DNA of 64,000 nt from a virus. The number at the start of each line of letters is the position of its first letter. Position 1 is the stretch's first letter. Location: IMG/VR virus record IMGVR_UViG_3300020190_000032, positions 1 to 64,000 of that record; one strand, given 5' to 3'. Under the pieces are notes generated by a model that was not told the DNA's origin, made no database searches, and worked only from the letters and a program-made list of their open reading frames with translations. Positions 6,834-8,647 of the stretch are shown in pieces. The position numbers were made by a program, and so were the translations under genes.

Positions 6834-7064
6834 ATGAAAATGAAAAAGCTTGATTATGGTCTTGGATTGCTTACAGGCTTTGCTCTTGGAAGTCTTTTCC
6901 TTCTGTTCCCATCCTTCTTGGAGGCTTTCAAACCACCCCAGAAAGGGGTGGAGTCGCCCCGTTTTGAAGTGGTTGATAATTACAAGGGATGCGATATCGT
7001 CCGTTGGGAACCTTCGGGTTATGCTGAGTATAAATTTTTTCTCGATTGCAGGAGTCTAAAATAA
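6834..7064 (+). CDS. Membrane-anchored protein, 76 aa
   Basis: N-terminal helix (about residues 6-26, LDYGLGLLTGFALGSLFLLF) then a short extracytoplasmic-looking domain with two cysteines (KGCDIVRWEP and FLDCRSLK). Two in-frame ATGs (6834, 6840) could serve. GGCATATGTTATGG at 6813 is a weak promoter match. Function unknown. Confidence 0.6.
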   Translation: MKMKKLDYGLGLLTGFALGSLFLLFPSFLEAFKPPQKGVESPRFEVVDNYKGCDIVRWEPSGYAEYKFFLDCRSLK

Positions 7065-7066
7065 CA

Positions 7067-7267
7067 ATGCAAGTAGTAGAAACTGAAGATGGGTTCGAAA
7101 TTTCTTGGGACCCAAACGACCCAGTTGAACGTGCCCTTAACGACTGGACTGAGCAAGATTTTTTGCAAATCATACTAAAAGAAGCTGAAAGAGTGCTGGC
7201 AAAACATGAAATTGCACAAAATGGTTCAGATGAGAACACTTTTGAGAAAGTCTTTATGGCAAAATAG
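7067..7267 (+). CDS. Small acidic protein, 66 aa, paralogue of the 57044 gene
   Basis: Starts MQVVETEDGFEISWDPNDPV with a GGAG site 12 bases upstream. It matches the 57044-57214 product along its N-terminal half: pattern V.E.EDG...I.WD..P......W.E.DF/W...I. The shared unit suggests a beta hairpin followed by a helix. Function unknown for both; the second copy sits directly in front of the large terminase. A longer TTG start at 7046 is less likely. Confidence 0.6.
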   Translation: MQVVETEDGFEISWDPNDPVERALNDWTEQDFLQIILKEAERVLAKHEIAQNGSDENTFEKVFMAK

Positions 7268-7270
7268 GAC

Positions 7271-7376
7271 ACGTTCATTCGCTGTTTTTGAATAGCGAAC
7301 GGAAGTAAGCCGACTTTTACTCGTATTCTTGATAAACGCTATTTATCAAGAATCCTGATAGCCGACTGAAGGAACG
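7271..7376 (+). promoter_or_regulatory. Glutamine riboswitch (downstream-peptide / glnA type)
   Basis: Conserved blocks of the family are visible: CGTTCATTCGC at 7272, P2 TTCGCT/AGCGAA (7278-7283 with 7294-7299), AACGGAAGTAAGCCGAC after it, and GCCGACTGAAGGAACGC at 7361-7377, with P1 pairing CGTTC (7272-7276) to GAACG (7372-7376). A long variable hairpin (about 7324-7352, 11-bp stem) is inserted. This class binds L-glutamine and is known in cyanobacteria and cyanophages in front of glnA or short peptide genes. Here it precedes the 62-residue gene at 7407. It would make that gene respond to host nitrogen status. Confidence 0.85.
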
Positions 7377-7406
7377 CTCTTTAACCCTCGTTAAGGAGAT
7401 TCTGTT

Positions 7407-7595
7407 ATGTCGATTGCGACATATCGCGGTGTCAAGTATGACACTGACGTGCCCAAAAAAGAGTATGAGCAATGGTGGAATAAGATTCACCATGATGCCT
7501 CGCGGCATCTCATGTATCGCGGACGGGATTACCGTCCGTGTCAAACCAGCAAAGTCGTAGCATCTGCTACAATTTCGTTGCTGGAGGAACCATGA
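7407..7595 (+). CDS. DUF4278-like YRG-motif peptide, 62 aa, under riboswitch control
   Basis: Has two YRG.xY-type motifs (TYRGVKYD near residue 6 and MYRGRDYRP near residue 36), characteristic of the short cyanobacterial DUF4278 proteins. It lies 30 bases after a glutamine riboswitch and has a good AAGGAGA ribosome site 7 bases before ATG. It is the expected product of a downstream-peptide locus, probably a nitrogen-responsive small regulator, but the target is unknown. The stop overlaps the next ATG (ATGA). Confidence 0.75.
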   Translation: MSIATYRGVKYDTDVPKKEYEQWWNKIHHDASRHLMYRGRDYRPCQTSKVVASATISLLEEP

Positions 7596-7732
7596 CTACA
7601 CTCGCTCTGATTCAAGCACAACTCAAAAAACAGCAAAAGATCGGAAATTTTCCGTACTTGCGCTGGAAGCTGGCACAGGAGAAGGCAAATGCCATTACTA
7701 AAGCGATGGGAGAGGCCATCAGAAGGGCCTAA
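7592..7732 (+). CDS. Hypothetical protein, 46 aa
   Basis: Short helical basic protein MTTLALIQAQLKKQQKIGNF ending EAIRRA. The start overlaps the preceding stop (ATGA) and has GGAGG 4 bases upstream. Second gene of the riboswitch operon, so probably also nitrogen regulated. Function unknown. Confidence 0.65.
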   Translation: MTTLALIQAQLKKQQKIGNFPYLRWKLAQEKANAITKAMGEAIRRA

Positions 7733-7838
7733 ACGCAACGATAAAAGCCGTCAGGCATCAGCGCGTCTAAGGCAAATCAAGAAGGCCACAAAGGCCCAAA
7801 TGAAGCGGCTCCGGGAACGGGGCCGTTTTTCTTTTTGA
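7689..7838 (+). CDS. Highly basic protein, 49 aa, overlapping gene
   Basis: Frame MPLLKRWERPSEGPKRNDKS through RLRERGRFSF, about one third Lys/Arg, with AGGAG 7 bases before the ATG. It overlaps the 7592 gene by 44 bases in another frame, and its last codons form the stem and U tract of the operon terminator. The composition suggests nucleic-acid binding. Not recognised. Confidence 0.5.
   Translation: MPLLKRWERPSEGPKRNDKSRQASARLRQIKKATKAQMKRLRERGRFSF
7806..7836 (+). terminator. Terminator of the riboswitch operon
   Basis: 7-bp stem CGGCTCC/GGGGCCG (one G-U), loop GGGAAC, then TTTTTCTTTTT. It overlaps the 3' end of the 7689 gene. Confidence 0.85.
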
Positions 7839-7839
7839 A

Positions 7840-7907
7840 GGGCACTTCCGGGAATCGAACCCAGCATTCTAGGCTGTCTGCCTAACGTGTTCCTACACCA
7901 AAGCGCC
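7840..7907 (-). tRNA. Atypical tRNA, anticodon GAC (Val) by position
   Basis: On the minus strand: acceptor GGCGCTT/AAGTGCC (7 bp, one G-U), T8, short D arm GTGT-AGGA-ACAC, anticodon arm TTAGG-CAGACAG-CCTAG, variable loop AATG, and a textbook T arm CTGGG-TTCGATT-CCCGG. Length 68 without CCA. Anticodon GAC is the complement of 7876-7878. Odd points are a four-base D loop and A instead of the near-universal U at position 33. It may therefore be a degenerate tRNA, a tRNA-like RNA, or be misaligned. The T arm and acceptor make chance unlikely. Confidence 0.55.
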
Positions 7908-8039
7908 AGAGGCCCCCATGTTTGAGCTTCGCACTGAGAGGCTTTGGGGGACTGCAGGAGGCGATCAACTCCCCTGGCCTACCGAAATAGGACTTCGTAC
8001 ACAAACCAAGTATTAGAGGACTTGATTTGGGATAGATGA

Positions 8040-8104
8040 CTGAGGCGTGGGTATGCACCGACAATCGGGCTGGCGAACCAGGCGTAACGACCCAGAAGCC
8101 TCAG
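8040..8104 (-). ncRNA. Compact branched RNA fold between phosphoesterase and tRNA
   Basis: 65-base element closed by a perfect 7-bp helix CTGAGGC/GCCTCAG. Inside are TGGGT/ACCCA (5 bp), a CTGG-TTCG-CCAG tetraloop hairpin and a CCGA-TTG-TCGG hairpin. The strand is inferred from its position 9 bases after the minus-strand phosphoesterase stop; the helices would also form on the plus strand. The rest of 7908-8113 has further hairpins (CGAA-ATAGGAC-TTCG near 7983) and no convincing gene. Function unknown. Confidence 0.45.
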
Positions 8105-8113
8105 CTCTATCGA

Positions 8114-8647
8114 TTACATTATACCAAGATCTTGTAGTCGCTTGCGTACAACGTTCCACGAAATTGGGGTGTAGTTAATGTTTTCTACGCAGACGTTGAA
8201 ATATCGGAGATCTGGTAATCCTGTTTTTTCATCAGGAACAAGGCGAAAATGCAAGTGCCCGTGAATATTGGCCGAATACCGTGTTAAGTTCACTGGGTGA
8301 ACTGGTATATGAGTCAGAATTGCTCTATCAAGATAATGACATCCTCTTACGTCTTTGAAGTAAGGGAGATAATCGCTCATTTTAAAAATATCATGATTAC
8401 CACGAATTAATACCTTTGTACCATAAAGATAATCAAGACACTTTAAGCCCCTGCGAGGTATTGCAACGTCACCAAGAACATAGACTTTATCGTTTGGTGT
8501 GACGACACTGTTCCAGTTGCGAATCAGGTCATGGTTCATCTCCTCAATATCATCCCATGGTCGCAGAGGCGTGCCGTCGTCACGCAAAAATTTACACACG
8601 TTCGTGTGCCCGAAGTGCATATCGGATATCAGGAAAGTTTCTGCCAT
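8114..8647 (-). CDS. Calcineurin-like metallophosphoesterase, 177 aa
   Basis: Carries all five metal-binding blocks of the family in order: SDMHFGH (residues 8-14), VLGDVA (about 58), RGNHD (about 82), LTHIPVH (about 111) and HGHLH (about 129). Such phage enzymes hydrolyse phosphomonoesters or diesters, possibly in nucleotide or RNA-end processing. The length is typical of stand-alone phage versions. It is a single minus-strand gene at the border between accessory and structural blocks, divergent from the neck gene at 8697. Confidence 0.9.
   Translation of the reverse strand: MAETFLISDMHFGHTNVCKFLRDDGTPLRPWDDIEEMNHDLIRNWNSVVTPNDKVYVLGDVAIPRRGLKCLDYLYGTKVLIRGNHDIFKMSDYLPYFKDVRGCHYLDRAILTHIPVHPVNLTRYSANIHGHLHFRLVPDEKTGLPDLRYFNVCVENINYTPISWNVVRKRLQDLGIM

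Follow-up and report, generated by a model that had tools for sequence, protein, structure and literature searches.

A type-1 glutamine riboswitch ahead of a mini-protein operon in a tailed cyanophage, and its likely kinship with a composite phage RNA

The riboswitch at the locus

Glutamine is a nitrogen signal that cyanobacteria read through riboswitches, and in the DNA described here an RNA sensor for glutamine heads an operon of tiny proteins in a phage of photosynthetic bacteria. The window, by which we mean the whole stretch of 64,000 nucleotides that was analysed, belongs to the virus record IMGVR_UViG_3300020190_000032 (a virus sequence of 84,315 bases) and encodes a tape-measure protein, a terminase, a DnaB-type helicase, a primase, an endolysin, a sigma factor, and psbA. 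Its source is a tailed cyanophage, for which a comparison with the first 25 kb found no close named relative. The riboswitch was detected with cmscan as a match to the Rfam family RF01739 (Glutamine, type 1) at 7270-7380 on the plus strand, which covers the full model (1-53) at 40.5 bits (E 2.4e-5; curated gathering cut-off 35 bits), and RF01739 is the sole family to exceed its gathering score when both strands of the 64 kb are searched with 4227 families. A preliminary description, made from the sequence alone, had placed here a glutamine riboswitch of the "downstream-peptide/glnA" class and suggested a covariance-model search with the Rfam glutamine riboswitch models; that search returned this significant match and bears the riboswitch out. 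As to the class, the glnA part (RF01739) holds and the Downstream-peptide part (RF01704) does not, for RF01704 has zero matches at E<=1 in 7000-8200, and the RNA is therefore assigned to the glnA/type-1 form. Its parts are as follows.

7272-7377, plus strand: glutamine riboswitch aptamer, type 1 (RF01739 match), linchpin base C7377 included
7272-7276 and 7372-7376, plus strand: helix P1, CGUUC/GAACG (Rfam alignment)
7278-7299, plus strand: P2 hairpin (Rfam alignment)
7300-7307, plus strand: junction strand J2/3, CGGAAGUA (Rfam alignment), with G7301 and G7302 corresponding to G22 and G23 of the solved aptamer
7308-7315 and 7360-7367, plus strand: helix P3, AGCCGACT/AGCCGACT, 8 positions with two C.A mismatches, closing the inserted arm
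7316-7359, plus strand: inserted arm, UUUACUCGU, then a 12-bp hairpin, then CCUGAU, where relatives have an inner permuted junction
7325-7336 and 7342-7353, plus strand: 12-bp hairpin with loop CGCUA, capping the P3 arm
7368-7371, plus strand: junction strand GAAG

The three-helix core and the junction strands CGGAAGUA and GAAG of RF01739 are thus present in the Rfam alignment and in the sequence, and the inserted hairpin, previously described as 11 bp, is of 12 bp and sits atop the 8-position P3 helix. In the solved glutamine aptamer G22 and G23 hold the ligand between them, and G23 pairs with C60 as the linchpin (reviewed in PMC11477058). By our mapping, C60 would correspond to the base directly after P1, giving G7301, G7302, and C7377 in the window, so that the contacts named in that review (G22, G23, C60) are all retained and the linchpin pair expected of RF01739 is supplied by G7302 and C7377. 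The window RNA shares with the known glnA RNA the helices P1, P2, and P3, the CGGAAGUA and GAAGGAACGC blocks, the linchpin G23-C60, and a position 5' of a DUF4278-type gene; it differs in lying on a phage and in the long arm with its 12-bp hairpin on P3, a helix that in relatives bears a second, permuted junction.

A composite RNA in related phages

Relatives were collected by scans of IMG/VR, in which at least 220 unique RNAs have a composite layout, and this composite RNA usually leads the same operon in cyanophages. Its elements follow in the order P1, P2, CG[G/C]AAGUA, P3, CGGAACG, a short loop, CGUUCAU, a second P2, CG[C/G]AAA, P3, and GAAGGAACG, an order that we read as a glutamine aptamer whose P3 arm enters a second junction instead of ending in a loop. 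This inner junction has the same helices in the same order, opened at P3 and closed at P1, which makes it circularly permuted, and it is without the AAGUA and GAAG strands of the outer junction. One P2 arm of the composites is often long, with TTCGCTATTTGCAAATAGCGAA, and the other short, and which of the two is long varies, as if the arms had been exchanged.

Pairs were counted in an alignment of 39 diverse composite sequences (A1), in which the nested structure is 94.2% paired (80.6% in shuffles), shows 142 two-sided changes (46 in shuffles), and reaches a covariation score of 0.347, where slid versions stay at or below 0.087. Two-sided changes occur in P3 and at all four P2 pairs that were counted, and both P1 helices, being invariant in the 39 composites, give no covariation information. 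Among the 220 listed sequences the outer linchpin is G-C in 148, C-G in 72, and nothing else, and the inner one is C-G in 201, G-C in 4, G-U in 2, and mismatched in 13, although such counts are not independent events, since the sequences are related and the outer linchpin change largely follows two groups. Tandem glnA aptamers are known (PMC2864571) and were seen in SAR86 in this analysis, and S-PM2 shows sub-threshold RF01704 and RF01739 matches side by side, as would be expected if the composites were simply two aptamers, one 5' and one 3', and not nested; yet neither half is able to form a P3 hairpin of its own, the closing P3 pair links the halves (U-A 14, G-C 10, A-U 7, with no mismatch among 31), and the halves have complementary defects, the first lacking GAAG and the second AAGUA, all of which makes the tandem arrangement improbable.

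The place of the window among these RNAs was assessed with R1, a covariance model of the composite RNA built in this work. Named cyanophages with the full composite score 72-97 bits, whereas the window (40.2 bits) and one relative, L263 (40.7; L numbers are our labels for loci), score as single aptamers do (L051, for example, 36.7). Neither the window nor L263 has the inner junction of the composite (CGGAACG-loop-CGUUCAU-P2'-CGSAAA); P3 is retained in both. The low R1 score, together with the Leptolyngbya aptamers that likewise have long P3 arms, would suit an ordinary single type-1 aptamer with an unrelated hairpin in its P3 loop, the composite phage RNAs being a separate matter. We regard this as rather unlikely, given that the P3 sequence of the window, both C.A mismatches included, is identical to that of the composites, that the operon and its proteins are those of composite loci, and that the closest full-composite relatives share the hairpin tip motif in their inner P2. 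Three loci with related proteins (L003, L011, and L036) are full composites in which an AUAAA-N5-UUUA(U) tip in the inner P2 resembles the window hairpin, and L263 keeps the simplified arm of the window with a hairpin that differs by two compensatory pair changes; from these tips and this arm the insert in the window is best read as a remnant of the inner module. In the nearest relatives (L003, L004, and L008), whose proteins are 83-98% identical, a full composite stands at the same place, and the window RNA appears to be a derived relative of the phage composite and not a full member.

The composite appears to be a phage-specific elaboration, found in many cyanophages including the cultured S-PM2, S-CREM1, Bellamy, P-TIM68, DSL-LC02, DSL-LC03, and S-SRM01. 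The long outer pattern has 43 matches in 84,980 species genomes, none of them with an inner module, and the inner pattern was not found in 386 cyanobacterial genomes, with the proviso that exact-pattern searches can overlook variants; R1 matched 15 of 292 genomes, always over about 52-63 nt, a length that marks these matches as single aptamers. A long glutamine aptamer in an OM182 clade bacterium (L309, 7201-7307) carries CGTTCATTTGAACGCAAA in its P3 arm beside a different hairpin and resembles a bacterial counterpart of the inner phage module. In L054-L173, which are mostly marine phages, glutamine aptamers, single or in tandem, also stand before many other families of 30-65-residue basic proteins, not DUF4278-like ones alone.

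Where the inner P2 of a composite is long, as in 89 of those listed, it always contains an open reading frame (ORF) of some 50 codons that is related to phrog_504. Its start lies 4-6 nt inside the arm, and in 86 of the 89 it stops at the UGA of CUGAAGGAACG; sequence differences by codon position, counted without the last eight codons (5977/2575/12402), show that it encodes a protein; the gene is annotated in DSL-LC02 and S-SRM01 and unannotated in DSL-LC03. A ribosome stopping at this UGA would adjoin P1 and the hairpin that holds the ribosome site of the operon, and could open the latter. We put forward tentatively, as a possibility that we hold with some reserve, that the phages have a two-site riboswitch of their own, in which an outer aptamer and an inner, circularly permuted one share a helix and would provide cooperative or two-input sensing, and in which, in a large subset, a nested gene begins in the inner P2 stem and ends within the aptamer core, which would make translation of the gene and folding of the sensor mutually exclusive; the window would then hold a reduced, one-site version. 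Such a larger and apparently undescribed phage switch, with two glutamine-type sensors on one stem and sometimes a whole gene enclosed, would be a new model system in which to study how ligands are sensed cooperatively and how translation competes with RNA folding. Neither a fused permuted pair on one P3 nor an aptamer arm with a gene nested inside it was found in the accessible literature, outside which lie most subscription papers, the primary glutamine-riboswitch papers of 2011 and 2018 included.

Phage glutamine riboswitches and tandem glnA RNAs were already known (PMC9964418, PMC9004378, PMC2864571). The riboswitch annotated in S-CREM1 (PMC9964418) is one of the composites found here and lies upstream of a protein with a YRG motif, but the paper treats it as a simple glnA element and makes no mention of the second junction. 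The glutamine riboswitch of the methylophage Melnitz (PMC9004378) is likewise phage-borne, but is associated with a tmRNA and not with a DUF4278-like operon.

The ribosome-site hairpin and the direction of the switch

Three further features connect the aptamer with expression of the operon.

7257-7265, plus strand: promoter-like extended -10 site, TGG CAAAAT, 6 nt upstream of the aptamer and overlapping the stop codon of the upstream gene
7377-7398, plus strand: ribosome-site hairpin of 9 bp, CUCUUUAAC-CCUC-GUUAAGGAG, whose closing base C7377 is common to the linchpin
7393-7398, plus strand: ribosome site AAGGAG, inside the 9-bp hairpin that begins directly after P1

The ribosome site, earlier called excellent, is indeed good in sequence but is buried in this hairpin. 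A terminator scan flagged the hairpin as a transcription terminator, a candidate that was rejected as its tail, ATTCTGTT, has no U-run. In the window the hairpin has a predicted stability of -9.1 kcal/mol, or -6.4 with C7377 held single, so that freeing this base costs 2.7. Relatives with a C after P1 have the ribosome site paired in 77 of 80 leaders and the C60 base paired in 70 of 80; the hairpin energy in this class is -4.8 kcal/mol against -1.6 in shuffles, and freeing the base after P1 costs a mean of 2.2 kcal/mol. No significant ribosome-site hairpin was found in the leaders of the G-linchpin class, which is mostly marine; the expression mechanism proposed below would therefore not be general, and another platform must act there. 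In the 220 listed relatives the best TATAAT match lies 7-8 nt before the aptamer in 147, and 6/6 matches occur in 114 (13 in shuffles), from which transcripts probably begin at the aptamer. The window box matches at 4/6 positions and a promoter scan found no complete sigma-70 site in this region, so its assignment as a -10 element is tentative.

The aptamer core, the P3 shared with the composites, the loss of the inner junction, the linchpin base as the start of the ribosome-site hairpin, and the conservation of the operon are all read from sequence and comparison, and on them rests the interpretation that we favour, at a probability of roughly 0.7: the tailed cyanophage would carry a functional type-1 glutamine riboswitch, a slimmed derivative of the phage-specific composite, which controls translation of the DUF4278-like mini-protein and, by overlap, of its small basic partner. 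Transcription would begin at the aptamer; glutamine would stabilise P1 and pair G7302 with C7377, and this pairing would withdraw the closing pair of the ribosome-site hairpin, so that translation rises and the RNA acts as an ON switch. The ON direction follows from the hairpin data of the C class and from published type-1 and type-2 cases, namely gifB and a type-2 element, both activated by glutamine (PMC6316151). P1 borders directly on the hairpin, the two being compatible in a constrained fold, and glutamine might instead turn expression OFF if the ligand-bound P1 stacked on the hairpin and stabilised it, but this is unlikely, because the ligand-bound solved form uses C60, the base that closes this hairpin (PMC11477058), and the tested relatives are ON switches (PMC6316151).

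Several points tell against the ON-switch interpretation: the -10 box of the window is weak, with its 4/6 match; the hairpin is unusually stable at -9.1 kcal/mol, and loss of one pair may leave it closed; P1 is absent from the unconstrained minimum-energy fold of the window RNA; and the inner junction, conserved elsewhere, is missing, so that the copy could be decaying, though both core and hairpin remain intact. That the element is a non-functional or decaying relic, as the lost inner junction and the lost usual stop of the DUF4278-like ORF would also suggest, is nevertheless very improbable, since the aptamer core, the linchpin pair, the ribosome-site hairpin, and the reading frames are intact and the inserted stem is maintained by compensatory changes in L263.

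The mini-protein operon and its surroundings

The operon comprises the following features.

7407-7595, plus strand: DUF4278-like protein, 62 amino acids, two YRG motifs
7565-7573, plus strand: TGCTACAAT, a second promoter-like site, in the 3' end of the gene for the DUF4278-like protein
7592-7732, plus strand: small basic helix-type protein, 46 amino acids, start overlapping the preceding stop (ATGA)
7689-7838, plus strand: basic protein MPLLKRWERPSEGP..., 49 amino acids, overlapping the preceding gene in a different frame
7802-7837, plus strand: intrinsic terminator, a 12-pair stem followed by TCTTTTT

The preliminary description of a DUF4278-like gene with two YRG motifs is right as to the motifs, and the match to DUF4278 (PF14105; 23.3 bits, E 8.5e-5) stays below the Pfam gathering cut-off of 25.3; all 40 aligned sequences (the window and 39 relatives), in turn, match DUF4278 at E<=0.01 (best 1.2e-7), and YRG occurs in the first gene after the composite in 212 of 215 relatives. 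A glutamine riboswitch with a DUF4278-like gene on a phage, as first proposed, is thus backed by the covariance model, by protein-family matches, and by comparison with relatives. Two small basic genes and a terminator (also delimited as 7802-7829) do follow, as had been described. Near relatives' DUF4278-like proteins stop at 50-52 amino acids, and the window ORF continues through a stretch that is promoter-like in L004-L011; TGCTACAAT itself is kept in L004, L005, L006, L007, and L011 and may represent a second promoter. The -4 overlap at the second gene is usual among composite loci. The third ORF encodes a real basic protein, as its differences from relatives concentrate at third codon positions (3/1/13 by codon position against L009, for example). 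Its stop codon sits just past the U-run, the gene reading through its own terminator, so that terminated transcripts may be without a stop codon, and the frame extends further in L003, L008, and L011.

In cyanobacteria, glutamine riboswitches are already known to precede DUF4278 genes, and DUF4278 is the N-terminal part of IF17, a glutamine synthetase inactivating factor (PMC6316151). In the gifB (IF17) leader of Synechocystis a glutamine aptamer likewise controls a gene with a DUF4278 part (PMC6316151), but the phage protein has 62 amino acids and no second domain in Pfam; the type-2 riboswitch (RF01704) of marine picocyanobacteria also controls small DUF4278 proteins, but the window has no RF01704 match even at E 1. 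As to the C-terminal part of IF17, which is IF7-like and binds the synthetase, a Pfam scan of the 62-residue protein at E<=1 gave DUF4278 and a sub-threshold DUF4371 only (a family scan, with no direct comparison with an IF7 sequence). A search of solved structures with the protein and its profile gave nothing credible. AlphaFold2 predicts a beta-hairpin at the YRG motif and helices, with a mean predicted local distance difference test (pLDDT) of 69 and a predicted template-modelling score (pTM) of 0.37, too weak for a fold search. The PII-interacting protein PirA was considered as an identity for the small protein and dropped: neither DUF4278 nor YRG is mentioned in the PirA paper, and a link in sequence was not found. 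In S-CREM1 a single protein combines the YRG part with a helix of the second-gene type, and in Bellamy the two are joined in reverse order, fusions which suggest that the two proteins work together. A role of the phage proteins in nitrogen control is plausible, and the presence of the phage-specific composite in many cyanophages suggests that phages tune this conserved operon to the nitrogen state of the host; that the small proteins act on host glutamine or nitrogen control by analogy with IF17 is the most speculative part of our proposal, and the effect on host nitrogen or carbon metabolism first suggested for the peptide would likewise rest on DUF4278 being the N-terminal part of IF17.

Beyond the operon, an abiF RNA (RF03085) match at 7912-7950 on the minus strand scores 36.1 bits, just below the cut-off of 37 (E 1.4e-4 in a 1.2-kb search), and no Abi_2 (PF07751) protein is encoded in the 84-kb record; a phage-borne abiF RNA without its protein partner could counteract a host AbiF system. 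Apart from this match at its edge, the intergenic stretch 7940-8100 contains no Rfam family; it is conserved in L263, and its plus strand folds better than shuffles (z -2.6). ARAGORN alone calls a weak tRNA-Val (gac) at 7840-7907 on the minus strand, a similar sequence following the operon in L263, and group I introns lie near the operon in L018, L020, and L263.
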